Assembly (NCBI GenBank): GCA_018003315.1
Contig: JAGNEJ010000047.1
Span: 1 to 37,017 of the forward strand
DNA length: 37,017 nt
Source: Verrucomicrobiales bacterium
GTDB taxonomy: Bacteria > Verrucomicrobiota > Verrucomicrobiia > Verrucomicrobiales > V1-33
Direction of reading: 5' to 3'
Made by a program: the position numbers and the translations under genes. Under the pieces are notes generated by a model that did not search any database, had not been told where the DNA came from, and was given only the letters and a program-made list of their open reading frames with translations. Shown piece by piece: positions 2,241-37,017 of this stretch. Numbering within the stretch: the first letter of the stretch is position 1; each line of letters begins with the position of its first letter.

Positions 2241-3056
2241 TTATTTCCTGGCTCGGGTTTCGACGAAGGCCTCGAATTGTTCACGGTTGATCCGGTAAAC
2301 GGCTCCGCAGCGGGGGCAGCCGACCCGGAGCAGGGGTTCTCCTTCAAAGAGTCCGTCCACTCCGTCCGTGCAGTGCGGAAGGAGCACCTCCCAGATGCGC
2401 GTCACGTCGCAGCCGCACTCGAAGTGATAGTGGCGGGTTTCCAGCAGGCTGAGTTCCTCGGTCTGGTCCAGGGTGCGGACGGCATCCGCGCTCAGGCTTT
2501 CCAGCCACGGCACGTCACACTGCGGCTGGGCGGAAATGAAGACGTAATCCTCCGGACTGTGTTCAAAGAAACGGGCCGGACGCTGTTCGCTTTGATGGTA
2601 AAAGCGCTCCACCGCGCGGAAAATGTTCGGGTCTTCAAAGTCGATGGTGCTGGAGCGAGGTTCGGGCATGCCGGTTTTCTGCATCCGGGAAAAGAACAGG
2701 TTGCGCTCGGTGTCCTTGACCATCTGGTCGAAGACGCGTCCAGCAATGCGCGCGGTGGTGTTGTCGCCGCAGACGAACAGATTCATGAGCGGACGCTGGA
2801 AATGCACGGTCCAGGCGTGGTGTTCATTCCAGGGTTTGGAAGCCAGATGCAGGGTGAGTGCGGCCAGCGCTTCCTTGAAGGTGGCATCCTGAAATGGGTT
2901 CATCTGCAACTGGTGCTGCGCCAGGTGCAGATAGTAGTCCACAAAGAGCGGTTCAAACTGGCCGCGGACCAGCAGGGCGTTGCGTCCGCGTACAAAGTAG
3001 CAGCGCACTTCCACCGGGGAAAAGGTTTCGGAATTTTCAGAGTTTTCGGGATCCAC
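2241..3056 (-). CDS. hslO: Hsp33 family redox-regulated chaperone (divergent)
   Basis: The product is about 271 residues from a GTG at 3056. The frame is open much further upstream, but that part runs antisense to pta and does not look like protein, so GTG was chosen. The N-terminal Hsp33 fold is visible as 'CYFVRGRNALLVRG' and 'LMNLFVCGDNTTARIAGR'. The C-terminal redox-switch zinc site is CGC at about 214-216 plus CPRC at 247-250, followed by 'GAVYRINREQFEAF', which matches the Hsp33 C-x-C / C-x-x-C arrangement. Hsp33 is a cytosolic holdase that releases zinc and unfolds on oxidation to bind unfolding proteins. Length is close to the usual 290. The middle of the protein is divergent. The gene is transcribed divergently from pta across about 115 bp. 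Confidence 0.85.
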   Translation of the reverse strand: MDPENSENSETFSPVEVRCYFVRGRNALLVRGQFEPLFVDYYLHLAQHQLQMNPFQDATFKEALAALTLHLASKPWNEHHAWTVHFQRPLMNLFVCGDNTTARIAGRVFDQMVKDTERNLFFSRMQKTGMPEPRSSTIDFEDPNIFRAVERFYHQSEQRPARFFEHSPEDYVFISAQPQCDVPWLESLSADAVRTLDQTEELSLLETRHYHFECGCDVTRIWEVLLPHCTDGVDGLFEGEPLLRVGCPRCGAVYRINREQFEAFVETRARK

Positions 3057-3170
3057 GCCGGGGAGTTTACCGCGCCGCGGCGGGACGGAAACTGGAAATG
3101 CGGCCAGGTGGCCCCGGGCATTTGCACTGGCAATGCGCGGGCGCACTGGCATGGTCCCCGGCCTGCATTC

Positions 3171-4259
3171 ATGAGCACTGGCATTTACGATCCAGAGAAT
3201 TCCTTCCTGCGTCCCCTGGTGGAAACCCTGCGCCGCCATCCCAAGCGCGTGGTCTTCCCCGAGGGGCGGGACCTCCGCGTCCTGCGTGTGGCGGCGGAGC
3301 TGGCGCGGCTGGAATGCGTGTCCCCGATCCTGCTGGGCCGCCGCCGGGAGATCGAGGCCGCGGCGCGTGAAGCCGGCGTGCCCATGGACTTGATCGGCGT
3401 GGTGCAGCCGGAAGACAGCAGCGATTTCCAGGCCTACTGCGAACGCTACCGGCGCATGGAAAAAATCCGCCGCCGGTTCATCAAGGCACCCGGCGAAACC
3501 ATGTCGATGCCGCCCTATTTCGCGGCGATGATGCTGCACTATGGCGCGGTGGATGCGATGGTGGGCGGAAATCAATCGCTTCCTGCCGCATTTTTCCGCG
3601 CCCTGTTCCACATCATCGGCCGCATGCCCGCCCTGGACAGTGCCGCCAGTTGCACGGCGGTGCGCCTGCCGCACCGCCCGGATCTGGGAAAGGACGGGGC
3701 GCTGATTTTGGCGGACTGCGCCGTCATCCCCACGCCCACTTTCAGCCAGCTTGCGATGATTGCCGTGGAAACGGCAAAGGTCGCCGGAGCCTTGCTGCAG
3801 GACCGCCCGCGCGTGGCGATGCTCAGTTTTTCCACCAAGGGAAGCGCCCGCAATCTGACCACTGAAAAAGTGCTAGCCGCCACGCATCTGGCCCGCCACC
3901 TCGCCCTGCAGGAACGGGTGGCAATGGATGTCGATGGCGAGCTGCAGTTGGATGCCGCGCTCATTCCCGGAGCCGCGGCGCGCAAGGCGCCGATGAGTTT
4001 TGTCGCCGGGCGGGCCAATGTCCTGATATTTCCCGATCTGAACGCCAGCAACATCGCTTGCAAGCTGCTGGAACAGATCGGCGGAGCGGAGTCCTGCGGG
4101 CACATGATTCTGGGGCTGAAACGTCCGGCTGCCCACGTGAGCCGAGTGGCAAACGAAGCCACGCTTTTCGGCGCAGCGGTGTGTGCCGCCTACCGGTCCA
4201 TCGGCTACCGCGAATTGATCCAGAGCGAGAATTGGGAGGATGGGGCGGCTGGCGTCTGA
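3171..4259 (+). CDS. pta: Phosphate acetyltransferase (Pta/PTB family)
   Basis: The product has 362 residues starting at ATG 3171 (MSTGIYDPENSF). It belongs to the phosphate acetyl/butyryl transferase family, which interconverts acetyl-CoA plus phosphate with acetyl-phosphate plus CoA. Family landmarks are the N-terminal 'RVVFPEGRDLRVLRVAAEL', the central 'MLSFSTKGSA', then 'VDGELQLDAALIP', 'VLIFPDLNASNIACKLLEQ', and a C-terminal 'ILGLKRPAAHVSR'. Length fits the short form, which has only the catalytic domain and lacks the N-terminal DRTGG regulatory part of long Pta. The same frame continues upstream antisense to the Hsp33 gene. I chose this ATG because the family's N-terminus starts here. 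No acetate kinase gene is adjacent, so the pathway partner must be elsewhere. Confidence 0.92.
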   Translation: MSTGIYDPENSFLRPLVETLRRHPKRVVFPEGRDLRVLRVAAELARLECVSPILLGRRREIEAAAREAGVPMDLIGVVQPEDSSDFQAYCERYRRMEKIRRRFIKAPGETMSMPPYFAAMMLHYGAVDAMVGGNQSLPAAFFRALFHIIGRMPALDSAASCTAVRLPHRPDLGKDGALILADCAVIPTPTFSQLAMIAVETAKVAGALLQDRPRVAMLSFSTKGSARNLTTEKVLAATHLARHLALQERVAMDVDGELQLDAALIPGAAARKAPMSFVAGRANVLIFPDLNASNIACKLLEQIGGAESCGHMILGLKRPAAHVSRVANEATLFGAAVCAAYRSIGYRELIQSENWEDGAAGV

Positions 4260-4370: not shown

Positions 4371-6737
4371 ATGAAGCCATTTCATCGCTCTCCCCTCCAT
4401 CGGATTTCACCGGCTCTGGCCGCGGCGCTGCTGGCGCTTCCGTTTTCCGCCCCAGCTCAGAAGGCGGACTCAGCTGCGGCGTCTGACAACTGGTATTCGT
4501 GGCGCGGACCCGACCAGAACGGGACCAGCACCGAGAAATATGCCCGCAATGCCTTCAACGAAAAACCCCTGTGGATCAAGGATCTGGGCGGGCGCGGTGC
4601 CCCGGTCGTTGCCGCCGGACGGGTCTATGTTTTCGGCTGCCGCGGCACCGGTCAGGACGTGTTTGAGACCCTGACGTGTTTCGATGCCGCCAGCGGCAAG
4701 CAGCTCTGGGAACGCACGTATTCGGATTTTCTGTCGGACAATGCCTACAACCGCTACGCCATCGGCAGCCCCACGGTGGATCCGGAAACCGGCCACATTT
4801 TCCTGCTCACCACGCCCGGCATCATGGTGGCCGTGGATCAGGAAGGGAAAACGCTCTGGCAGCGCAGCATGATGGAGGAGGCCGGGCGGCTGAGTTTCCC
4901 CAATGGCCGGACGGGAGCGCCGGTCATCGTGAACGACCTGGTGATTGTCCGCGGCATTACGGCCAATTGGGGCGGCGACGGCCCCGCCCGGGACCGGCTC
5001 TATGCCTATCAAAAAACCACCGGCGATCTCGTCTGGGCATCCACTCCGGGCGTGCAGCCGCAGGACAGCTCGTTTGGCACTCCGCTGCTCAACTGGCGGG
5101 CCGATGGCAGCGGCGTGCTCTACATCGGCACCGGGTGCGGGAATCTCTGCGCAGTCAATGCACTGACCGGGAAACCGCTCTGGCGGTGGAAGGTGGCGAA
5201 AGGCGGCGTCAACTCCAGCATTGTCAAATACCACGACCTGCTCATCTGCATTCACGACAAGGAATGCGTGGACGTGGCCGAATTCGGCCGCATGGCCGCG
5301 GTGAAAATCCCCGCGGCACCACCCGCCGCGCCACCCATGCCCACGGACCCGGCCCACGTCACGCCAGGCTGGGACGTTCCGGTTCTGGAACCTTCAGCGG
5401 AAGTGTGGCGGCTGCCGCTCATTGCGGAAAGCTCTTCGCCCGTCATCGCCGGAGACCTTCTTTTTCAAGTGGACCAAAGCGGCAACCTGCACTGCCTGGA
5501 ACCGGAAACCGGCAAAAGGCACTGGGAGCTGAAGCTGGGGCCTGGCAACACCCATGCCTCGCCGCTTTTCGTCAACGGACTGCTTTACTGCCCGCTGCAA
5601 AATGATGTCTCCTCGCAGGACGGGCTGCTCTATGTCATCAAACCCACTCCGGAGAAGGGCGAAATCCTGCACAAGGTCAAGCTTGAGGGCTATGCGCTGG
5701 GCGCTCCCTCCGCCGCCAATGGCCGCCTCTACCTGACCACCGCCAAAAAGTTTTACTGCTTCCAGATTGGCGAAGGCAAGATCGAATCCGGAAATCCCGC
5801 CTGGCCCGGCCGGCCTCCCGGCAAACCGGGACCGGCAGTGGCCCTGCAAGTCATTCCGCAGGAGGTGATCCTGACATCCGGCGGAAGCAGGGAGTTTTCC
5901 CTTCGCGCCATCGACGCCAAAGGCTATCCCACCGGCGACAAGCTCGATCCCGTCAAATGGGAAAGCTTCATTCCGCCAACCGCCAAGGTGAAAAGCACGA
6001 TGGATGCCGCATTCGACCCGTCCGGGCGGCTGGTGGCCAAACCGGCCGCCCACCAGAGCGCCGGCGCCTTCAAGGCAACCGCCGGGAAATTGTCAGGACT
6101 GATCCGCGGGCGGGTGCTTCCCTCGCTGCCCCTGCGGCAGGATTTCGAGCAGTTCGAACTCGCCGCCGATCCGTTAGTCAATGCTGACGGCGTCAAATTC
6201 GCCTATCCGCCGCTGCCCTGGATCGGAGCCCGCATGAAATGGGAAGTGCGGGAAATGGACGGAAACAAGGTTCTCTACAAAACCATGCAGCCGGTCTTCG
6301 CTCAGCGCGGCACTTCCTTTTTCGGCAGCCCGGAGTGGAGCAATTACACGGTGGAAGCGGATGTCATGACCGACAAGATTGGGCGGACCAAGGGCGAAGT
6401 CGGCATCATCAACCAGCGGTATGTCATCATGCTCAATGGCAACGGCGGAGGCATCGAGGTGAACTCCAACCACGAGCGGCTCAAGGTCACCCATCCTTTC
6501 ACGATCACGCCGCGGCAATGGTACCGCCTGAAAAGCCGCGTCGATGTCGCCGAGGACGGCTCGGGCACCATCCGCGCCAAAGCCTGGAAAAAGGGCGAAG
6601 CGGAGCCTGAGGCCTGGACCCTCGAAGTGCCTCATGCCCATGCGCACACTTCTGGTGCGCCGGGCATTTTCGGATTCGCCCTCCAGGGCAAAGTGCCGGT
6701 TTACATCGACAACATTCTGGTGTCGCCGAACAAGTAG
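4371..6737 (+). CDS. Secreted PQQ-like beta-propeller protein with C-terminal LamG/DUF1080-like domain
   Basis: The product has 788 residues. ATG 4371 is chosen because it is followed at once by a Sec signal peptide (MKPFHRSPLHRISPALAAAL, cleavage near APAQK). Residues about 40-480 contain repeated propeller blades with the PQQ/BamB-type pattern of 'LTCFDAASGKQLWER', 'MVAVDQEGKTLWQR' and 'LHCLEPETGKRHWELK'. A linker around 500-590 has an Ig-like feel (VALQVIPQEVILTSGGSREF). The C-terminal 150 residues resemble a concanavalin/LamG or 3-keto-disaccharide hydrolase-type sandwich ('SPEWSNYTVEADVM', 'PRQWYRLKSRVDVAEDG'). Such proteins are abundant in Verrucomicrobia and Planctomycetes. The exact substrate is unknown, and whether PQQ is bound cannot be judged. 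It lies 111 bp after pta in the same direction and convergent to mnmA. Confidence 0.85.
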   Translation: MKPFHRSPLHRISPALAAALLALPFSAPAQKADSAAASDNWYSWRGPDQNGTSTEKYARNAFNEKPLWIKDLGGRGAPVVAAGRVYVFGCRGTGQDVFETLTCFDAASGKQLWERTYSDFLSDNAYNRYAIGSPTVDPETGHIFLLTTPGIMVAVDQEGKTLWQRSMMEEAGRLSFPNGRTGAPVIVNDLVIVRGITANWGGDGPARDRLYAYQKTTGDLVWASTPGVQPQDSSFGTPLLNWRADGSGVLYIGTGCGNLCAVNALTGKPLWRWKVAKGGVNSSIVKYHDLLICIHDKECVDVAEFGRMAAVKIPAAPPAAPPMPTDPAHVTPGWDVPVLEPSAEVWRLPLIAESSSPVIAGDLLFQVDQSGNLHCLEPETGKRHWELKLGPGNTHASPLFVNGLLYCPLQNDVSSQDGLLYVIKPTPEKGEILHKVKLEGYALGAPSAANGRLYLTTAKKFYCFQIGEGKIESGNPAWPGRPPGKPGPAVALQVIPQEVILTSGGSREFSLRAIDAKGYPTGDKLDPVKWESFIPPTAKVKSTMDAAFDPSGRLVAKPAAHQSAGAFKATAGKLSGLIRGRVLPSLPLRQDFEQFELAADPLVNADGVKFAYPPLPWIGARMKWEVREMDGNKVLYKTMQPVFAQRGTSFFGSPEWSNYTVEADVMTDKIGRTKGEVGIINQRYVIMLNGNGGGIEVNSNHERLKVTHPFTITPRQWYRLKSRVDVAEDGSGTIRAKAWKKGEAEPEAWTLEVPHAHAHTSGAPGIFGFALQGKVPVYIDNILVSPNK

Positions 6738-6798: not shown

Positions 6799-7887
6799 TC
6801 AGGCAGGGTGGAAAATTTCCTCGAAAATTCCGCCACCCAGCAGCATCTCGCCGTCGTAGAGCGCACAAATCTGCCCAGGCGCCAGGGCGCGCTGCGGGCG
6901 GTGGAATTCCAGATGGAATTTGCCGGCACCCAGCGGGTCGAGCGTGGCGGGTGCGGCAGCCGACCGGTAGCGCGGCATCGCCTGCAAATCCCGTTTGGAG
7001 TCAATGGACTGATTCACAAAACTCACGGAACCAATCCGGCAGCGGGATGCATAAAGCCGCGGCGTGTCCGGGTGGTCGAAGGCGACCACGATTTCCTTCC
7101 GTTCCGGCCGTTTTTCCACAATGACATACGGCTCCCGAAACACCGGTGAGGCAATGCCCAGCCCCTTGCGCTGCCCCAGCGTGTAGAGGTGCAGACCGCG
7201 GTGGCGGCCCAGCTTTTTCCCCTGCTGGTCCACGACGTCTCCCGGGTCGTCCGGAACAAAGGCGCGGAGGAAGTCGGACATCCTGACATTTCCGATGAAG
7301 CAGATGCCCTGGCTGTCCTTCTTGGCTGCGGTGGGCAGGTCCAGTCGGGCCGCGGCTGCGCGAACTTCCGGCTTCAGCAGGTGGCCGATGGGAAACAGGG
7401 CGTGCCGTGCCTGAGACTGCCGCAGGAGCGCCAGAAAATAGGTCTGGTCCTTGTTCGGATCCCTGCCACGCAGCAGGTCGGTGGAGTTGTCGGCGTTGAG
7501 TCGCGTCCGGGCGTAGTGTCCGGTGGCCACCTGGCTGAACCCTTCCTCCCTGGCATAGTTCAGAAAAACGCCAAATTTGATTTCCCGGTTGCACATGACA
7601 TCGGGGTTCGGCGTCACCCCGCCGCGGTAGCCCTCCAGCAGATAGTTCACCACGCGGCTGCGGTAGTCCTGCATGAGGTTGACGACGCGGAACTCAATGC
7701 CCAGCCGCGTGGCCACCGCCCGGGCATCTTCGATGTCCTGCTGCCACGGGCAGTCGCCGAGGATGTTTTCCTCGTTGATCCAGTTTTTCATGTAGGCGCC
7801 GGTGACATCGTGCCCTTGCTCGACCAGCAGGGCCGTGGCCAGACTGCTGTCCACCCCGCCGGACATGGCTGAAAGTATCCGTGACAT
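6799..7887 (-). CDS. mnmA: tRNA-specific 2-thiouridylase MnmA
   Basis: This is the 362-residue enzyme that adds sulfur to U34 of tRNA-Lys, tRNA-Glu and tRNA-Gln. ATG 7887 is chosen because MSRILSAMSGGVDSS is the family N-terminus; the frame is open 40 codons further but that extension is not conserved in style. The PP-loop SGGVDSS is at residues 9-15. The catalytic cysteine is C99 in NPDVMCNREIKF and the second is C196 in DSQGICFIG. 'DPNKDQTYFL' and the C-terminal beta-barrel 'GGGIFEEIF' are also present. All key residues are intact, so the protein should be functional. The gene is divergent from the epimerase gene that starts at 8052 and convergent with the beta-propeller gene. Confidence 0.96.
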   Translation of the reverse strand: MSRILSAMSGGVDSSLATALLVEQGHDVTGAYMKNWINEENILGDCPWQQDIEDARAVATRLGIEFRVVNLMQDYRSRVVNYLLEGYRGGVTPNPDVMCNREIKFGVFLNYAREEGFSQVATGHYARTRLNADNSTDLLRGRDPNKDQTYFLALLRQSQARHALFPIGHLLKPEVRAAAARLDLPTAAKKDSQGICFIGNVRMSDFLRAFVPDDPGDVVDQQGKKLGRHRGLHLYTLGQRKGLGIASPVFREPYVIVEKRPERKEIVVAFDHPDTPRLYASRCRIGSVSFVNQSIDSKRDLQAMPRYRSAAAPATLDPLGAGKFHLEFHRPQRALAPGQICALYDGEMLLGGGIFEEIFHPA

Positions 7888-14771: not shown

Positions 14772-15107
14772 TCAGGGTTTCCAAGCTCCCGCCGCGCCCT
14801 GGATGGTGGCGGCGGGGATGGGTTCTGTCGTCGGATCGCTCAATGCCAGCAGCACCCGTTCCGCCCGGCCCGGTTCCTCGGACAATAGATCCTGCAACGC
14901 CCGGCGCAGCGCCAGAATGCGGTAGTCATCGAACTGTCCGTGGCGCTGCACCCGGTCGAGAAACGCCGCCACGTCGATGACCCTGGCCCTGGCGTCAACG
15001 AAGGCCTGGTCAACCAGCGGAGGGGAAATGGTTGGGAGATTCATCATGAGGGAAAAATCGGGGTGCGGCACCAACCGCCGTGAAAATGACTTCGCCACAG
15101 CGGCCAT
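14772..15107 (-). CDS. Small hypothetical protein upstream of the TatD-like gene
   Basis: The product has up to 111 residues from ATG 15107. ATG codons at 15047 and 15044 would give a 91 or 90 residue protein beginning M(M)NLPTISPPLV, which may be the true start, since the first 20 residues are basic and atypical. It appears largely helical: 'DVAAFLDRVQRHGQFDDYRI', 'LALRRALQDLLSEE', 'GRAERVLLALSDPT'. No signal peptide or membrane segment is seen, and I do not recognise the family. It lies 71 bp before the TatD-like gene on the same strand, so co-transcription is likely. EboA is the protein expected beside an ebo-type TatD, but I cannot match this sequence to EboA. Confidence 0.55.
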   Translation of the reverse strand: MAAVAKSFSRRLVPHPDFSLMMNLPTISPPLVDQAFVDARARVIDVAAFLDRVQRHGQFDDYRILALRRALQDLLSEEPGRAERVLLALSDPTTEPIPAATIQGAAGAWKP

Positions 15108-15146
15108 GGGTTCTTGAGTTGTGATTCAGCGGCCAAGCTCGACTAC

Positions 15147-15243
15147 GCCCACCCCAGGCGCGCTACCTGCACGGGAGCGAAGCGACCAGCAGGCAGCGTG
15201 ACGCGGGAAGGCGTTAGGTGTACCACCTTGTTTGGGGTTGGGC
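15147..15243. repeat. Imperfect nested palindrome next to the restriction-modification operon
   Basis: The outer arms are 15147-15155 (GCCCACCCC) and 15234-15243 (GGGGTTGGGC), complementary apart from one extra base. The inner arms are 15161-15170 (CGCTACCTGC) and 15189-15198 (GCAGGCAGCG), matching 9 of 10. The outer arm begins 2 nt beyond the stop of the endonuclease gene. The layout resembles an integron attC-like or other cassette-end palindrome, but one outer arm lacks the conserved AAC/GTT core, so I only call it a palindrome. It could equally act as the transcription end of the operon. Confidence 0.5.
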
Positions 15244-15244
15244 A

Positions 15245-15970
15245 TTATTTCTTTTTGAGGTCGGTTGTAATACCAAGTTCAGTAATTCTCTGTGCGGCGA
15301 GCCGCTCCAATCGTCGAGCTTGGGTTAGCAGTGTGCGGCGCAGACCTGATGAAACATCCCGTTCGCTGATGACCCTCGCAAGGTTCGCTATCGTGGTGGC
15401 TCTCCGGGCAATGCGGACATCGGGATGACGGCGTTGCGAATAGATGGAATCCGGGATAATCCGTCCCTTGTGAGAAACAGGAAGTTGGATCTCATCCTTC
15501 GGTGCCATCTCCTTCTCGTTGAGAACAGCACCAAGGGTCGATTCGCGCAAAACCTTCTGAAACACCGTATATTCCGCCCGATCAAGAAAATGCTTCTTCT
15601 CCTGCTTCGACAATCCTTGAACAAGGTGGTCGAGTGGCCACACTTCGATATATGCGACTTCAAACGGATCGAGAACATTCATCGCCACCGCATCCGTTCT
15701 TTGATTCGTCAAGTGACGGCTAACTCTACCGCTAATTTTCTCTTCCGTCTGACCAACGTAAATCGGTTCGGAATCATAATCGTAGAAAGCATAAACTCCA
15801 TGCTTGTAGCTGCCGATACGATGGCCTTGCACGTCCTTTGTGGCGAAGAAAGAACGAATTTCGGCGCGAATGGCGGCTACATCTTCCGGCAGACCGATAA
15901 TATCCTGCTCAAGTGGTGTATCGGGTGAGTCTTCGGGTTCCATACTTGGGCAAAGAGTCCAGTTCGTCAA
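15245..15970 (-). CDS. GIY-YIG type II restriction endonuclease (Eco29kI-like)
   Basis: The product has 241 residues. The GIY-YIG nuclease core is clear: GVY at 58-60, YVG at 71-73 (EPIYVGQTEEK), an arginine in GRVSRHL at 82-85, a catalytic-type glutamate at about 133 (DRAEYTVF) and an asparagine at about 151 (AVLNEKE). This order matches the catalytic set of the family. The C-terminal half (about 165-241) is basic and probably contacts DNA. It follows the C5 methyltransferase gene on the same strand and overlaps it by up to 62 nt (35 nt if M10 at 15943 is the start), so translation is probably coupled. Type II enzymes of this fold such as Eco29kI pair with C5 methyltransferases. The recognition sequence cannot be read from the protein. 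Codon use is more AT-rich than in the flanking genes. Confidence 0.83.
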   Translation of the reverse strand: MTNWTLCPSMEPEDSPDTPLEQDIIGLPEDVAAIRAEIRSFFATKDVQGHRIGSYKHGVYAFYDYDSEPIYVGQTEEKISGRVSRHLTNQRTDAVAMNVLDPFEVAYIEVWPLDHLVQGLSKQEKKHFLDRAEYTVFQKVLRESTLGAVLNEKEMAPKDEIQLPVSHKGRIIPDSIYSQRRHPDVRIARRATTIANLARVISERDVSSGLRRTLLTQARRLERLAAQRITELGITTDLKKK

Positions 15971-17063
15971 AAACAGGGTTCAAATAGTGTGTGGCAATCC
16001 ACTCGATCACATCGACGCAAACAGCGTCGCCAAAGCCGAAAAGAGCCTGATTCAGATTAAGCGTCTTAGGAAGGGTGTAGTCATCCGCTCCCATCAGCCT
16101 CGCGCACTCTCTCGGCGTCAAAAGCCGCACACGATACTTTCCTCTGCCACCCGCGAAAAGAATCTGCCGTCCGCTTCCGCCGCGAGGCGTTCGCAGGCAG
16201 CCAGCGATGCCGTCCGTCCTTAGTTCTGCCATGGAACGGCCATTGCGAACTCGGCGAAAAACGGTTCCGTAGGTCGTGGTTCTGCCAGAAATCATCCCGT
16301 CGGCAATATCACGATGACGAGGACTCATCTGGTTCAAAAGGTAACTCGCTCTCTCGTCGCTCCACCAATAAGATGAGTTGTGTGGTAAATCCTCAAGGAT
16401 GTCCGAAAGAGAGGTGGCTCGATCGGGTAATCGTGGAACATCCCGAATGTTCCATTTGATGTCTGGATTCCACAAGATGAAATCCGCCAAGGCCGCAGGC
16501 CGGGCGGAATTTTCCAAAAATGAGGGCGTCTCTCTGACGCATGAAGATTGGGGCAAGCCCTTGGTGCCAATAATGAAAAGCCGTTGTCTGCTCTGGGGAA
16601 CAAAATGCGCGGCGTCGATCATCAGGGTATCAAGGGCGTAGCCCAAGCGATTGAGGGCAACACATGCGTCTCGGAAATCATTGCCGTTGTGCGAGGTGAG
16701 GAATCCCGGCACATTTTCGAGGAGAACGATGGGAGGCCGTCGGCCTCCTATCGTTTCAAGAACCTTGATGAAACCCCAAAATGCGCTGGAATGAGTCCCA
16801 GCGAGGCCCTTTCTGGCTCCTGCAAGCGACAGGTCGTTGCAGGGGAATGAGGCGGTGGCAAGCGTGACATCGGGAAAATCCACGGCATCGACCTTGTGAA
16901 CGTCTCCCAAGACAAAGTGCTCGCTGGCGTCCGCGAAGTGCCCCAGGTAAATCTCCAGCTTGTCTTCGTCGATGTCGTTCGCCCAAACTGTTGCCCATCC
17001 AGCCCGTTCCAAGCCGAGCCGCACGAGGCCGATTCCGGCGAAAAATTCAGCCACGGTTTTCAT
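15909..17063 (-). CDS. DNA (cytosine-5-)-methyltransferase, type II
   Basis: The product has 384 residues from ATG 17063. C5-methyltransferase motifs appear in order: motif I FAGIGLVRLGLERAG (7-22), motif IV SFPCNDLSLAG with the catalytic Cys at 75, motif VI ENVPGF (116-121), motif VIII QSRQRLFIIG (157-166), and motif X GFGDAVCVDVIEW near the C-terminus. Motif IV reads PCND rather than the commoner PCQ, a tolerated variant. The target-recognition region lies at about 185-310. It methylates the same site the neighbouring GIY-YIG enzyme cuts, protecting the host. The gene comes first in the operon, so the methylase is made before the nuclease. Its AT-richer codon use compared with tsaD or dnaJ suggests horizontal acquisition. 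Confidence 0.93.
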   Translation of the reverse strand: MKTVAEFFAGIGLVRLGLERAGWATVWANDIDEDKLEIYLGHFADASEHFVLGDVHKVDAVDFPDVTLATASFPCNDLSLAGARKGLAGTHSSAFWGFIKVLETIGGRRPPIVLLENVPGFLTSHNGNDFRDACVALNRLGYALDTLMIDAAHFVPQSRQRLFIIGTKGLPQSSCVRETPSFLENSARPAALADFILWNPDIKWNIRDVPRLPDRATSLSDILEDLPHNSSYWWSDERASYLLNQMSPRHRDIADGMISGRTTTYGTVFRRVRNGRSMAELRTDGIAGCLRTPRGGSGRQILFAGGRGKYRVRLLTPRECARLMGADDYTLPKTLNLNQALFGFGDAVCVDVIEWIATHYLNPVFDELDSLPKYGTRRLTRYTT

Positions 17064-17141
17064 TGCGGGAGATTATGGCACGCTGTGGGAACGACGCGAT
17101 TCTTATTTTGCCCAGCGTGAAGGTTCGCACATCCGGATTGA

Positions 17142-17336
17142 ATTGGCCCGCAGCCGGTGTGGCTGGTGGTGACGATTGGGGTGGATGTGCGGGATGGATT
17201 GACGGGCAATTTTACGGCGTTGGCGGGCAGTTTCGAGCGATTTATCACGGGCGGGGTGGATTTCGCCGTGCCGCAGGCAAACGGAGACCGTGTGAACGGC
17301 GGCCTTCACCGATGCCGCGCTGTATTTGCGTTGTAG
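17142..17336 (+). pseudogene. Relic resembling an MCE/PqiB-type domain
   Basis: The 371 bp between the methyltransferase start and the dnaJ stop holds no intact gene. One frame has a 64-codon stretch with protein-like composition: VTIGVDVRDGLTGNFTALAG followed by SFERFITGGVDFAVPQ. The pattern '...SFE-x-x-ITGGVDFAVP' recalls the MCE (mammalian cell entry/MlaD/PqiB) domain, where a '(S/L)x(x)LxxGGxxFxxP' element is common. It has no start and no continuation on either side. It looks like the remains of a gene broken when the restriction-modification module arrived. The assignment rests on a short pattern only. Confidence 0.3.
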
Positions 17337-17434
17337 AACGGAAAGCCGGTCATCCCGCCGGGCACGGGGCATCAAGTGCGAAACGGATGCTGCGCAACCG
17401 CTGGTTGGACGGCTCGGCCAGCGCTTGATGGTGA

Positions 17435-18595
17435 TCAGCCCTTGCCGAAAAAGCGCTTGGCTTTTTGCAGAAAGCCCTCGGTCAGCGGCGTATTCTGCTG
17501 GCCGACGGATTCAGCGAAATGGCGGAGTTTCTCCTTCTGGTCCGCATTCAGATTGGTCGGCACCTCGACGCTGACCCGCACGAGGAGATCGCCGTGGGAC
17601 GAGCGATTCAGCACCGGCATGCCCTTTCCCCGCAGCCGGAACAGCGCTCCGCTCTGGGTGCCGACAGGAATTTTGACCGCTGCTTTTCCGCCCAGCGTGG
17701 GCACGGAAAGCTCCCCTCCGAGCGCCGCGGTGACAAACGGCAGCGGCGCTTCGCAGTAGAGGTCGTTGTCATGGCGTTCGAAGACATCGTGCTCCCGCAG
17801 ATGGATGATCACATACAGATCCCCGGCCGCTCCGCCGCGGAAGCCAGCCTCGCCGTTGCCAGTGGAGCGCAGCCGGGCTCCCTCACTGATGCCGGGGGGA
17901 ATGCGCAGAGTGATGCGGGTGGTTTTTTCCGTTCGCCCGTCCCCATGACAGTCGGGACAGGGGTCGGAAATGATCTGTCCGGTGCCCTGGCAGTCGGGAC
18001 AGGCCTGCTGTACCTGAAAAATTCCGCGGGTGCTGATGACTTGCCCGTGCCCCCGGCAGGTGGGGCATTTTTTCATGCCGTGCCCCTTTGCGGAACCGGT
18101 GCCGTGGCAGCGTTCGCATTCCGCAGCCCGTTCCAGTTCCAGTTTTTTTTCCGCACCACCGGCTGCGTCTTCCAGGCTTATTTCCAGGTCATAACGCAGG
18201 TCGCTGCCGCGCATGCGGCCGCTGCTGTCACGCTGTCGTCCTCCCAGAAATTCCTCGAAAATGCTGGACATGCCTCCGCCGCCCATGGCCCCGCCAAACA
18301 CCTGCCGGAACATGTCGAACGGATCCACCACCGTGCCGCCCTGCGCAGCTCCGCCCCCCGCCCCTGGGGCAAAAGCAGCATGTCCATAACGGTCATACGC
18401 GGCACGCTTCTGTTCGTCACTCAGGATGCCGAACGCCTCCCCGACTTCCTTGAATTTCTCCTCCGCCTCTTTGTTGTCCGGATTGCGGTCCGGGTGGTAC
18501 TTCAGAGCCATTTTCCGATAGGCCTTCTTGATGTCCTCCTGGCTGGCACCCTTGTCCACGCCCAGAACCTCGTAAAAATCGCGTTTTTTGGCCAT
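17435..18595 (-). CDS. dnaJ: Chaperone DnaJ
   Basis: The product has 386 residues. The J domain carries HPD at residues 34-36 ([12 protein letters not shown]). A Gly/Phe-rich linker follows (about 75-125), then four zinc-finger repeats: CERCHGTG (about 160), CPTCRGHG (177), CPDCQGTG (199) and CPDCHGDG (213). The C-terminal substrate-binding domain begins at about 225 ('[20 protein letters not shown]'). It is a full-length type I Hsp40 that stimulates DnaK ATPase and delivers unfolded proteins. It sits 11 nt downstream of grpE, forming a grpE-dnaJ operon. dnaK itself is not in the window. Confidence 0.97.
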
Positions 18596-27886: not shown

Positions 27887-29648
<1,762 letters not shown>

Positions 29649-31081
29649 ATTGAGTTTAAGAAACTCTGGGAAACCAAAAACAAGGCTAACCAGATCGTCG
29701 TAAAGGCCAAACGTGACGATCCCAAGGACGACAAACAGACCGCCGATGCGGATGGCAATCTTTACGGAACGCCACGCTATCTGCTCTACGTCACCGCCGA
29801 TCCGACCGACAGCAAGTATCACGTTTCGCTGGATTGCGACCTTGGCGGCATGAGAGACCAATTTGTGTGTGCTGCATACAGCGGAGGCAGCAAAATCAGC
29901 GGCACCGACAAGGCTTTCCCCGCTGCTGCAGATCAGCCAGCAGACATGTTGATTCCAGCCACTGGCTCAGCACAGAGCGGCCAAGACTTTGTGATCAAAT
30001 TGGCATTTGATACGAACAAGAACGGTCTCATCGACGGGAGCGAGACGACGATTGACCTTACGGCGGCGAAGAGCGAAACGGGATCGCCAGCGCCGCCGAT
30101 GGTTCGCGGATTCAGTGTTGCCGCGGTCAATGCGGCGAAGGCAACAATCGAAGGCCAAGCCAACGGTTCAGGGTTCACTGGTTGGAAACCGAACTTCCTG
30201 GGCGCTTGGTTTGTGCCAAATGCTCAGGCTTTGGAGAAGCTGTTCTACGATGGAGCCACTGGCGGTATGGTGCAAGACTACCAGCCCACAACCACGCTCG
30301 GTGCAGCGAGTCTGAATGCTTTTGGGCCACCCGGCGACTTCAACGAATGGTTAACCCATCACGCAGGCTCCAACTTCAACGCAGACGGCGTGACCACTGT
30401 GCAGCACTACAAGTGGAACGATCAAACGCGCATCTCTAACCTGATCGCGAACTCATCACCACTGAGTCTGTTAAAGAGCAACAGCACCATCACAGCACAA
30501 ATGACGACTGTGACGGATGCGACAGTAGAGAACTTTAAGCAGTCCAGTGTTCCAGTCGGCCAGTCGCAAACTTTCCCATCAGGCACCGCTGGTTACGAGT
30601 TGCAGCCAGTGTTAGCAGGCTTGGGAGCGCCACATTCATCACCAGCGTGGGTTCCCAAGCAAACCTTGCTTGTTGGCGATCAAGATGGCTATGCGGGTGC
30701 AATACCAGATGATGCTTTCGGCACCGTCGGACGGTCACGGTTCATCAACGGCGAGTATCGGTTCATCGTGAAGAAAGAAGCTCGAACCCAAACAATCTCC
30801 CACATGGTTGCGCCAGATTGGTGGGAATATGAATACGTCCCATACACCGCAGTTGTTGTTTACCTGCGGGTTAGCGGTAGCTCATTAGACCTCTACGACT
30901 TTAATCACAACTCTCCGGGTCTGAGCGTTCCTGCTGCCATCACTCAACTGAGCTACGGCAACGGCGGTTATGGCCGCACGAACGGAGTCATTTTCAGGGC
31001 TACCGTTGACATCCTCAAGGATTACGAAGTGAAGGAAATACGCCTGCCCTGAAGCCAACTGCCAACATTTAATTTTAATTC

Positions 31082-32140
31082 ATGAAACCACACACCATCT
31101 TTCTGAGAGTGCTTTTCTTCCTGATGACCGTTCTTCTCAGCCCGGTCGTCCAAGCGAAGATTGCCGAGGAAAACCAGCGGAAGCTCGACGTGTTGAGCGA
31201 AATGACGGACACTCTGAAAACGAAGGGAATCCCCGGGTTGCTTGCCGACAGCGGCGAACGTCATTGGGTGGCCCCCAAGATGTTTTCAGCCTGGTTCATC
31301 GCCAAGCTGCCGGATGATCCCGACGGCAACAAGCTCGTCGAACAGGCCAAAAGCGCTTTTGGTCACGAAATGGCGAGACAATTGACCCCATTGGCAAAGG
31401 TTGTGAGAGGGACGAAGGAGGCCGCCATCCTGGAAAAGCAAAGCGACATCCTCTTTGCTGTGCTCGCATGGCTGGGGACAGAAACCGCATATGCTAACAT
31501 GCTTCTGCAACAGCGCGCCGACGACATAGCCAGCATCGCGGCGACCAAGTTGATGTGCGACATCAACTACCCGCTGGAGAAGGCAAGCAAGGCCATGAAG
31601 CGGTTCGATAGTCAAAACTGGGGAAGTCCGGAGCGGAGTCGCCAAGTGCTCTTTGAGGAATCTGGAGGAAAGCACTTCTTAGCCGATGGTGCCGCCACCA
31701 CTGAGGAGAAGTTGGACCGCGAGTTCCGAGAAGGCGTTGATTTGGTGATCAAACTCGGATCCATCGCAGGCCGCCTTGATCTCGAAATCTTCACTCGCGA
31801 GGACTTTGCCCAAGGAGAGTCGGTGATGGACTTGGAGAGAACATGGAGCAAACGGGCACATATCAATTTTGCTGAGAGAGGGTTCGGGTCAGTGAATCTG
31901 AGGAACCTTGCTACCATGCATGAGTTTCGAACACGTTATGGCAAGCTTCCAACTCAGCCTGTGAGCTATCAACCCAAGCCAGGGGAAAGCAAAATTGCGG
32001 CAGCATTCAAGGAACTGAGTTGGGAGAACCCATACGGAATCGGTGGTGCTGCCGACACCTTCGAAGCCTATCTTGACGGTCGCCTCGTGGATGAAGTATT
32101 CCGAGCGACAGATCGCCGCTTCAACCCAAACGCCAAGTGA
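31082..32140 (+). CDS. Secreted protein of unknown function, partner of tail A
   Basis: The product has 352 residues from ATG 31082. It has a clear signal peptide (MKPHTIFLRVLFFLMTVLLS, cleavage near VVQA) and then a soluble, mostly helical, charged protein ('EENQRKLDVLSEMTDTLKTK', 'KSAFGHEMARQLTPLAKVV', 'ATTEEKLDREFREGVDLVIK'). No recognised catalytic motif is present. It starts 29 bp after the tail-A protein with no terminator between, so the two are probably co-transcribed. By analogy with head-tail-partner loci it could be a protective or accessory partner, but that is inference. Codon use is more AT-rich than in the housekeeping genes of the window. Confidence 0.75.
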   Translation: MKPHTIFLRVLFFLMTVLLSPVVQAKIAEENQRKLDVLSEMTDTLKTKGIPGLLADSGERHWVAPKMFSAWFIAKLPDDPDGNKLVEQAKSAFGHEMARQLTPLAKVVRGTKEAAILEKQSDILFAVLAWLGTETAYANMLLQQRADDIASIAATKLMCDINYPLEKASKAMKRFDSQNWGSPERSRQVLFEESGGKHFLADGAATTEEKLDREFREGVDLVIKLGSIAGRLDLEIFTREDFAQGESVMDLERTWSKRAHINFAERGFGSVNLRNLATMHEFRTRYGKLPTQPVSYQPKPGESKIAAAFKELSWENPYGIGGAADTFEAYLDGRLVDEVFRATDRRFNPNAK

Positions 32141-34867: not shown

Positions 34868-35950
34868 GTGGAGATTATCCTCGACAGCAACAACATCGCC
34901 TACAAACCCGACATCGAAGCACTCGGCGTCAGCAACTACGTCACGAACAACGAGCTGCCTGCTACGAGCCAGTTCAACGACACCAATCCCGACCCTGAAA
35001 ACTTCCGGCTGCAAGCCAGACTGCCGAACGCAACGACGAACTCGATTGTGATGAAGTTGGAGGTGAAACGTGATGGTGCAGTCGTCTCCACCACCAACCA
35101 TACGCTCGACAAGAAGGACGGCGACTTTGTGCGCGGCCAGTTCTTGCGCCTTGTGACCGATACCGACGATGATGCTGTCTCTGGCGATCAAACCATCCTG
35201 GTGAAGCTCGGCGACAAAATCAAAGCCAGCTACGACCTGGGAGGTGGCAAGGTCGAACAAGAAATCCAAGTGGGACGTCCATCAAGCGAGGACAACAACG
35301 AGGCGGATAAACCGTGGAAGCACGACATCCGTGAAGTTAAAATGCGCTTCGTAGTGTTCCAGAACGCCGCAGGCCAGCCCTGCGTAAATCAAGCGAGCAT
35401 AAACAAAGATATAGATGACGCTAATGAGCGGCTTGCTCAGGCCGGGCTTCGAATCAAAGCCACATTTGATCTTGGAAATGGAGGGTATCCAATCCCCCAG
35501 TCGTTGCAGGATGGTTATGATGGATCACCCAGCGTGATCAACTTGCCCACGGCTGATGAACGTGCAGTCACTGAGAAGAAGGATGGAGATGCAAACACAG
35601 TGGATGTGTTTTATGTCGAGAAAATGAACACTAACGGGGGGCGAGGAACATCGTTTCCGGCCGCCCGCAACAGCACAGGCGATCAACGGTATAGCAACTG
35701 GATGGTGATCTCTGCAACAGCATCGGGTGGGGGCGATCCCTTCAACATGGTGCATGAGCTTCTGCACGTATTGCTCAATAGCCCTCACCGAAACGGTGAA
35801 CCTGCAACAGCAGTGTTCAAAGGTGGAACCTCACTCAACAAGGCTGTGGGCGGGACAAAGCGGATCGGCCCATATCCCGATGCTTCTACATCAGGGGTTG
35901 GACAGAGCGACACCACCACCATTCGGCAAAACGCGGAGACACTGCCATGA
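33371..35950 (+). CDS. Secreted modular protein, copy 2: constant head with HELLH peptidase-like tail B
   Basis: The product has 859 residues from TTG 33371; the natural start is probably ATG 33331, out of frame as sequenced. The head (about 1-498) is nearly identical to copy 1, including the proline run and three calcium-type loops. Upstream of the head, 'GVLTLAAGGC' resembles a lipobox. Tail B (about 499-859) shares nothing obvious with tail A. It contains HELLHVLLNSPH at about 795-806, a zinc-metallopeptidase HExxH motif with a further His 6 residues after the second; strict metzincins have 5. It is preceded by 'VDVFYVEKMN' and 'NWMVISATASGGGDPFNMV', a context that fits metallopeptidases. 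The stop overlaps the ATG of the next gene (ATGA), so translation is coupled. A surface-anchored or released peptidase is my best guess. Confidence 0.75.
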   Translation: MTLAAGGCHLPADDSFSAQLVQEPDGRHFLTFPTVRGQFYTVEQSPDGAVFAPAPGGFFYGIGEELRYCFLHGQPPPPPPQPPGGTPPPNWGNPQTKPSRFVSADLYFSAAGGGTTSVNRNDAAATPDHWRKLLEGTFPPAPAGQSRLLGFSVEDPDARYDFLLNLLHVPAEQFPGDLSDPPVLPRHLREAQLLEENLPRIVGELTRPAGTSASQALSSPKRLLRVRRQQIDTNGNGLFDDFELVHGFSAFAAEGQSGYAAPSADPDHDGLTNTEEQSLGTSPQNSDTDFDGSPDGEEAREGTDPKSNQSFPPRLVMVTNGLMYDFYGVCQEATFAGYGSLDAWGSWAGAGTTWLPLAAPLAYTGLSSLLETEITLPAAPPAGAERVTADCSDLIAYGRASTSLLNGIHPYTSANLQHLAIWLQIAPVPAAPITRTFLRITERATSAAPEPTVSAEAVTATFPTDAPSTHSNRIDLLPAISADGPEDDYWEQVSVRLLPVEIILDSNNIAYKPDIEALGVSNYVTNNELPATSQFNDTNPDPENFRLQARLPNATTNSIVMKLEVKRDGAVVSTTNHTLDKKDGDFVRGQFLRLVTDTDDDAVSGDQTILVKLGDKIKASYDLGGGKVEQEIQVGRPSSEDNNEADKPWKHDIREVKMRFVVFQNAAGQPCVNQASINKDIDDANERLAQAGLRIKATFDLGNGGYPIPQSLQDGYDGSPSVINLPTADERAVTEKKDGDANTVDVFYVEKMNTNGGRGTSFPAARNSTGDQRYSNWMVISATASGGGDPFNMVHELLHVLLNSPHRNGEPATAVFKGGTSLNKAVGGTKRIGPYPDASTSGVGQSDTTTIRQNAETLP

Positions 35951-36402
35951 AAACATCAACTTCGATTCAAGCCATTGTGTTGATTTGCTTGTCTTCATGC
36001 GGCCCTGAAGATGCGAATGATCGCAAGACAAGCACGCCAACACCTTCCAAGTCTGTGGAAGTGGCACAGAAGCCCACAGTCATCACGCCAAAGCCTGCGA
36101 CAGAAATCCCCAGGGTTGAGGTGCCGTCGTCTCCGAGTTCAATCGAGAAGCCGGAGAGCATTATGAAGAAACGAAAATCCTCCGACTTCGAGTCAGCGAG
36201 CAAACAGTTTGGAGAGCTTTTGCAGCAGAGCAGTATAGTAGGCAAACCCATCACAGAAGTGAAGGCGCTGTTGGGGCGGCCAGATGCGGAAACCGAAACC
36301 TCAATCTCATATCGGTTCGAGGCTGGTTATGGCGGCTGGGATTGGGTCTTAGATCACGACGGCAGGAATGTCCTTGGCTTCACCCGCAAAGGCGTCAACT
36401 AG
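35947..36402 (+). CDS. Small lipoprotein with BamE/SmpA-like domain, coupled to tail B
   Basis: The product has 151 residues. The start ATG overlaps the stop of the copy 2 gene by ATGA. A lipoprotein signal ends in the lipobox LSSC (MKTSTSIQAIVLICLSSC). A Pro/Lys/Glu/Thr-rich linker follows (about 20-70). The C-terminal part, 'SIVGKPITEVKALLGRPDAE' and 'TSISYRFEAGYGGWDWVLDH', fits the BamE/SmpA-type fold ('G(x)T(x)(x)EVxxLLGxPD'), a fold also found in protease-inhibitory and outer-membrane proteins. Coupling to a HELLH protein suggests it could restrain or chaperone that peptidase; this is inference. Confidence 0.8.
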   Translation: MKTSTSIQAIVLICLSSCGPEDANDRKTSTPTPSKSVEVAQKPTVITPKPATEIPRVEVPSSPSSIEKPESIMKKRKSSDFESASKQFGELLQQSSIVGKPITEVKALLGRPDAETETSISYRFEAGYGGWDWVLDHDGRNVLGFTRKGVN

Positions 36403-36447
36403 CTCAAGCGGCGTTCGTGAGCGTGGGGCGAGTGCAACGTCTCTCCG

Positions 36448-36494
36448 GCCTGCAACGGTTCTCCCCACCCCGCCGCGTGCCTGAGCTGGGCAAT
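36448..36494 (+). repeat. Junction element, copy B (47 bp)
   Basis: Matches 32157-32203 at 40 of 47 positions. It begins 45 bp after the lipoprotein stop. Its last bases already form the first codons of the headless tail (GTGCCTGAGCTGGGCAATGG). Confidence 0.65.
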
Positions 36495-36899
36495 GGACAG
36501 ATCGAATTTGGCAAGGACACGATCACTGCCGAGAAGCCCTATGAGTTTTGGGTCAATCATGATCGAGACATTGGGCACACAGTGGATGGAGATGATTGGG
36601 AGGAAGACGACGTGCAGGGAAATGAAACCTCTGAAACCTGGGACATCTTCGAGCCTGGTCTAAAGTGGCGGCGCGACTTAGAGGATGTCACACGAGTCTG
36701 GATTGACCTCAGTGGTTTTGGATCAGCGTTGAATACGCATGACGCAAACATCAAGCTGTATGCTCGCATGGAGCCAAGTGATGGCGATCCGCAGGTGACG
36801 CTTTACCAAGCAGTCGAAGCAGACGGTGGCCGCAAATATCTGACTGATAGTGATACCGGATACAGCCAGACGCAGATTTATTATGGCGAAGGTAACTGA
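36477..36899 (+). pseudogene. Headless tail-like fragment (orphan tail C)
   Basis: A frame of 140 codons from GTG 36477 has protein-like composition: PELGNGQIEFGKDTITAEKP, then 'YEFWVNHDRDIGHTVDGDDW', 'VTRVWIDLSGFG', 'NIKLYARMEPSDGDPQVTLY'. There is no signal peptide and no head region. The frame is open upstream to 36342 but that part overlaps the lipoprotein gene in another frame. It resembles the inside of a secreted, acidic modular protein of the same style as tails A and B, and it begins in the junction element. I read it as a displaced tail cassette without its own head, comparable to orphan tips in Rhs loci. It might instead be a small independent gene. Confidence 0.45.
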
Positions 36900-37017
36900 T
36901 TAGCACCCATTGGGCACCGGACGCTGGTCGTTGAAAAGTTCCGCGATGCCGGTGATGAGGCTTTCCGTTCGCAGTTTCATCGTTTCGGTCAGGCTCTTGA
37001 AGATCGCGAACATGGTC
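36900..37017 (-). CDS. C-terminal end of an unidentified gene (partial)
   Basis: On the minus strand the frame is open from the window edge to TAA at 36902-36900, about 38 codons: MFAIFKSLTETMKLRTESLI followed by TGIAELFNDQRPVPNGC. The composition is protein-like and the stop lies 1 nt beyond the orphan tail stop, so the two converge tightly. There is too little sequence to assign a family. Confidence 0.45.
   Translation of the reverse strand, partial: TMFAIFKSLTETMKLRTESLITGIAELFNDQRPVPNGC

Follow-up and report, generated by a model that had tools for sequence, protein, structure and literature searches.

The 37,017-nucleotide stretch of Verrucomicrobiales DNA analysed here (the window) holds a GIY-YIG nuclease gene and a C5 cytosine methylase gene, followed by a palindrome that we read as an attC recombination site. 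We consider it likely that this pair is a solitary integron gene cassette, with no integrase nearby, carrying a Type II restriction-modification (R-M) system. The initial annotation had proposed a mobile R-M cassette at this place; that proposal is supported, and the attC site gives it a likely mechanism, namely movement as an integron cassette. The features of the locus, together with two related sites from the same genome, are collected in Table 1.

Table 1. Features of the window and related sites elsewhere in the same genome
Feature	Position	Strand	Evidence
orf111	14772-15107	minus	tblastn match in relatives' tatD loci
attC recombination site of an integron gene cassette, as read here	15124-15236	minus	alignment A3, covariation, model R2
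GIY-YIG nuclease, 232 aa, presumed restriction enzyme	15943 (ATG)-15245	minus	PF01541
C5 cytosine DNA methyltransferase, 384 aa	17063-15909	minus	PF00145, TIGR00675, PADLOC
Candidate 5' cassette end	17064-17092	minus	sequence only; expected from G^TT cleavage point
IS transposase C-terminus remnant (most likely)	17113-17375	minus	likeness to own contig C78
dnaJ	17435-18595	minus	PF01556, PF00226, PF00684
Second R-M pair with its own attC	L003 224-1599 (own contig C71, about 104652-106027)		PF09195, PF05063
Third attC-like site	L242 1501-1599 (own contig C74:4370-4468)		R2, E 9.6e-9

The gene pair and the nuclease family

The methylase and nuclease genes are adjacent, open and overlapping, and domain matches uphold the pair as first described. 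The methylase matched PF00145 (E 7.6e-49), TIGR00675 and the PADLOC model MTase_II PDLC03243 (E 1.8e-123), and the nuclease, for which a TTG start at 15970 would give 241 aa, matched PF01541 (E 5.6e-7). The pair was also said to be richer in AT than its flanks, and measurement bears this out: GC is 0.548 and GC3 0.599 in the methylase gene, 0.505 and 0.513 in the nuclease gene, against a GC3 of 0.70-0.79 in eight flanking genes, and the island (GC 0.532) lies below all segments of the same size taken in 50-base steps over the whole 37 kb. Two more low-GC stretches, of about 0.52-0.57, occupy 29500-32000 and 35000-37000 of the window. The methylase would place m5C in a short recognition site, which the nuclease would cut where it is unmethylated, as in phage DNA.

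Relatives of the nuclease were confirmed at 158 places, and the best 80 of these, at 51-84% identity, come from many phyla going by their record titles. Among 38 aligned sequences G49, Y51, Y62, G64, R73, R76, H77, E124 and N142 are invariant, and we take them to include the catalytic residues. At E 0.001 Pfam gave only the general PF01541 model and no match to the model of the Eco29kI family (RE_Eco29kI). Sequence searches of Pfam, PADLOC, NCBIfam and the PDB provided no finer name: the nuclease had no PADLOC match and no sequence relative in the PDB, even with a profile. Among solved folds, that of the GIY-YIG domain of UvrC comes nearest to its AlphaFold model (mean pLDDT 86.7), with Z 8.5 and 2.6 A over 92 residues. 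Most of the VIA-align rows after UvrC resemble the C-terminal part in its helices only, and a family missing from these rows may still be related. Foldseek gave no match at E 0.001, with UvrC first (E 0.13) and Eco29kI at E 3.0.

The nuclease has the GIY-YIG catalytic domain in common with Eco29kI, Cfr42I and Hpy188I, going by the accessible part of PMC4081073; unlike them, it matches the general Pfam model only and ends, in its predicted structure, in a long helical C-terminal part. The comparative rarity initially claimed for GIY-YIG Type II enzymes stands for described enzymes, which are few in that part of PMC4081073, but not for the present family, which is common, with its 158 confirmed places. 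The nuclease appears to belong to an unnamed, widespread and little-studied GIY-YIG family. This family seems to include a metagenome-assembled genome (MAG) labelled Verrucomicrobiaceae (L063), since the integrase in its genome has the same place and score as that of G008.

The methylase is a near-constant partner. Of the best 80 of the 158 places, 72 have it upstream on the same strand (no more than 140 nt away in 61 of these, by match coordinates), three have it downstream and one has it opposite, and in four it was not found. At least 53 of the same 80 loci have a vsr gene, whose product repairs deaminated m5C, in the neighbourhood of the pair, upstream in the closest relatives (matching PF03852 in L048); this count drops L083, whose query was wrong-frame and self-matching, and 26 of the 80 gave no hit, some of them at contig ends. 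C5 methylase operons with vsr are among the nearest known systems. The relatives resemble them in often having vsr beside the pair; beside the window pair none was found (lowest E in the window 0.034), and a search of the whole genome, in which 4 of 14 controls gave a signal, found none either. Before motif IX, the methylase is 72-88% identical to 14 relatives; behind motif VIII the identity is 54-55%, about the same as that of the relatives among themselves. A recognition site shared with these relatives is plausible.

These partnerships also bear on a different reading, in which the GIY-YIG protein would not be a restriction enzyme; it would serve in repair or be a nuclease of the homing type, with an orphan methylase as its neighbour. 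The modelled likeness to the UvrC domain and the missing PDB and PADLOC matches are compatible with such a role. A methylase kept upstream on the same strand across many phyla, and a vsr gene so often nearby, argue for an R-M system instead, and we hold the repair or homing role to be improbable.

Site avoidance was counted in 425 kb of the genome, window included. GTMKAC is nearly absent, with GTCGAC found 2 times against 98.5 expected and GTATAC 0 times against 7.2; GTAGAC was found 7 times against 38.8 expected, both strands counted, and GAGCTC 4 times against 50.6. A genome of the same genus (G001) is less depleted (GTCGAC 30 against 78.9 expected, GAGCTC 20 against 52). Neither GTMKAC nor GAGCTC was assigned to the pair as its recognition site, as both are far less depleted in other hosts of the pair; their depletion may stem from restriction systems other than this one, whether still present or lost. 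CCGCGG is not avoided (798 found, 783.7 expected).

Flanks and genomic setting of the island

On its downstream side, the island is bordered by orf111, whose start codon lies 16 nt from the attC site. By tblastn, orf111 adjoins a tatD-like gene in 10 of 14 relatives' loci and is missing from the tatD locus of a same-genus genome (L176). DNA similarity to relatives ends at about 15024 on this side and at about 17445 on the dnaJ side. Comparison of the dnaJ-tatD interval in relatives, which the initial annotation had suggested, yielded no empty site: the two genes are apart in all 32 relatives with both placed, on different contigs in 27 and at least 45 kb apart in five. The island therefore sits at the junction of two blocks. 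In 29 relatives neither tatD nor orf111 occurs in the 1.5 kb next to dnaJ, which is weak evidence, since flanks of this length would miss them even at the window's own locus. Synteny breaks on either side of the island, at 15024-15124 and 17064-17445 of the window, and these breaks may reflect a rearrangement or a contig misjoin.

Upstream of the methylase, the segment 17113-17263 has a counterpart on another contig of the genome, C78, with 76% identity, and 22 of 31 residues agree between the window piece and the C78 tail. The C78 copy reads as the end of an rve-type transposase, itself broken, with matches to PF00665 (rve, E 3e-4) and PF13683 (rve_3, E 6e-4), both under the gathering cut-off. 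The window segment is most likely a decayed transposase tail of an insertion sequence (IS). It occupies the side where the closest relatives carry vsr, and a search for it in plasmids gave no match.

With such a remnant just upstream of the methylase, and with the dnaJ and tatD blocks joined here and not in relatives, the island could have been carried here by a transposon or insertion sequence, of which the transposase remnant would be what is left. We give this possibility only a small chance, given that just one IS end is visible and that inspection of the ORF list for 3.2 kb around the C78 copy recognised no R-M gene. Cargo of this kind would moreover leave the attC site on the other side of the island unexplained.

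The attC site and its relatives

The palindrome noted at the nuclease side is there, and at its full extent we read it as an attC site, placed 8 nt past the stop codon of the nuclease gene and in the same orientation. Its R'' box, CCCAAAC (15236-15230), is in register with other sites, and an imperfect inverted-repeat stem separates it from the R' box, GCTGAAT (15130-15124). The heptamer GCCCAAC (15243-15237), 7 nt outside CCCAAAC, fits RYYYAAC and is an alternative R'' candidate. ACCTAAC (15219) was rejected in this role, since other sites place the start of the full site 17 nt further upstream.

The conserved attC core is 5'-GNT-3', extendable to GTTRRRY and lax at its second position, according to the accessible part of PMC10127599. 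The window core, GCT and not GTT, keeps GNT and RRRY and deviates in the middle base. Given this core the site may be decayed; the deviating base may have arisen by point decay, or it may show that the cassette went into a secondary site. Pairing of the outer R boxes is poor, and by itself the attC strand folds with an unremarkable energy (z -1.0 and -1.5). Strict-consensus attC scans missed the site because the outer boxes deviate, and it was recognised only through two cousin palindromes, one on contig C71 of the same genome (84% over 43 bases) and one in another genome of the order, G026 (81%, E 1.7e-7).

The three palindromes align with a mean column identity of 83%, and at three stem pairs both partners differ. 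Of 112 genomes of the order, at least 13, the genome of the window and G026 included, were matched by a covariance model built from the three (R1); this is a lower bound, obtained with stricter filters and at most 37 scored candidates per genome. In one genome (G038) two copies lie 0.7 kb apart, and in another (G103) an integrase shares the contig with the site, at a distance of 4.2 kb. By crude ORF calls, one ORF stops just before the site and the next starts after it in most R1 loci inspected. The 3' ends of R1 matches coincide with R' ends called by an independent scanner in L142, L153 and L173.

Alignment A3 comprises 17 full sites, the window site and 16 others, three of which are in integrase-holding loci (L142, L153, L229). 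In it, 83.2% of cells are paired and 104 cells change on both sides. Covariation reaches 0.449, compared with 0.149 in shuffled alignments (0 of 500 reach the score) and at most 0.097 with slid partners, a control in which the structure is favoured by having been drawn from the same sequences. As a set, the 17 sites show the attC structure, with paired R and L boxes, an unpaired spacer, an extrahelical base and a variable end; the inner helices are paired in 82.6% and 93.1% of cells and the R-box helix in 67.2%.

Model R2 scores the window site, which is among its training sites, at 88.4 bits (E 3.2e-25 in its own genome). Over 58 loci it gave 64 matches at E 0.1, 48 of them outside training. 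Once the 16 training sites are left out, together with 11 matches whose loci have no placed integrase (two of these are reverse-strand matches of training sites), 37 matches remain, three of which are repeated places in overlapping loci; 35 of the 37 have the expected strand and lie on the attI side, the exceptions being L143 and contig C112 of the window's genome. Throughout that genome (5.09 Mb, E 1), R2 has three matches: the window, C71 and C74.

A palindrome just behind a stop codon that folds on either strand could also be a terminator or a REP-like repeat. No terminator-like site was called here, however, and the whole genome has just three matches. The choice by R2 of correctly oriented sites beside integrases and the agreement of R1 ends with an independent scan likewise point away from a terminator or repeat, which we regard as very unlikely, and towards an attC site.

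Two of the three attC sites of this genome follow R-M gene pairs. The C71 site comes immediately after genes for a BglII-type endonuclease (PF09195, E 2.7e-43) and an MT-A70 methylase (PF05063, E 1.9e-30), which together make another apparent lone cassette, upstream of an unrelated long gene; the C74 site has no clear cassette gene ahead of it. Of 189 genomes of the order, 75 have integron integrases at E 1e-60, this one included, and 69 are above the cut-off. The integrase gene of the window's genome, on contig C112, matched above the cut-off and is frameshifted. A YoeB/YefM-type toxin-antitoxin pair (PF06769, PF02604) lies about 0.8 kb from it; the stretches concerned are 1165-2116 and 2942-3588 of locus L013.

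At the other end of the island, the sole GTT within 47 nt upstream of the methylase has its G at 17092, 28 nt before the start codon, and would be the 5' cassette end. Beyond it runs the open, start-less plus-strand frame 17163-17333, which had been taken for an MCE/PqiB-like gene, interrupted by the island and since decayed; this frame has no MCE domain and no Pfam match at E 1, reads on the opposite strand as the transposase tail and leaves no interrupted gene in sight, so that we give such an insertion practically no credence.

A probable lone cassette and its significance

The cassette would have been moved through the bottom strand of its attC site, perhaps into a secondary site, by an integron integrase that belonged either to this lineage or to a donor. 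The cassette is now probably fixed or weakly mobile, because GCT fits the relaxed GNT and not GTT and because the outer boxes pair poorly. Model R2 found no further attC and an integrase family search of the genome found no integrase on the window contig, and with neither of them near the pair it does not amount to a complete integron or array.

A distant relative of the pair speaks for the cassette reading. A Synechococcus MAG (L082), the sole locus with a convincing R2 attC among the best 80 of the 158 places, has attC sites at 4812-4897 (E 1.3e-5) and 7415-7541 (E 2.6e-7) flanking its R-M genes, in the order integrase gene, attC, nuclease, methylase, vsr pieces, attC. Its integrase gene (3828-2934) and its vsr pieces are frameshifted. 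Identity to the window pair is 63% for the nuclease and only 40% for the methylase, and the gene order, nuclease then methylase then vsr, differs from that of the window. These differences weigh against the cassette reading, as do the frameshifts in the integrase genes of L082 and of the window's genome. The same is true of most of the best 80 copies, which are without attC sites detectable by R2. At another locus (L049), the nuclease is followed by a shorter palindrome that looks like attC to the scanner and is not matched by R2. When genomes of R-M loci were searched for integrases, two of seven were positive.

R-M or methylase genes in integron cassettes are known from Xanthomonas integrons (accessible part of PMC12444791), and methylase ORFs from a phage CALIN (accessible part of PMC9892861); since R-M cassettes are already on record in the former, the pair is not a new kind of cassette. 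As far as these sources go, the cassettes described there likewise consist of genes followed by attC, with a defence role assigned by homology; unlike them, the window cassette is single, lies outside any array and carries a GIY-YIG/C5 pair.

A wider picture, which we regard as possible rather than probable, is that of an unnamed GIY-YIG Type II family (methylase, nuclease and often Vsr) spread over many phyla, for which integrons would serve as vehicles in this order and in cyanobacteria, with scattered single cassettes perhaps a main route of R-M acquisition in such bacteria. Little was found in the open-access literature on the integrons of this bacterial group, and an attC model specific to the group can spot a cassette that stands alone, at a great distance from an integrase. 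For the family, the finding points to an unnamed group of GIY-YIG restriction enzymes with a near-constant methylase and a frequent vsr partner; for the integrons, it would widen the range of defence functions that their cassettes bear by one R-M pair.
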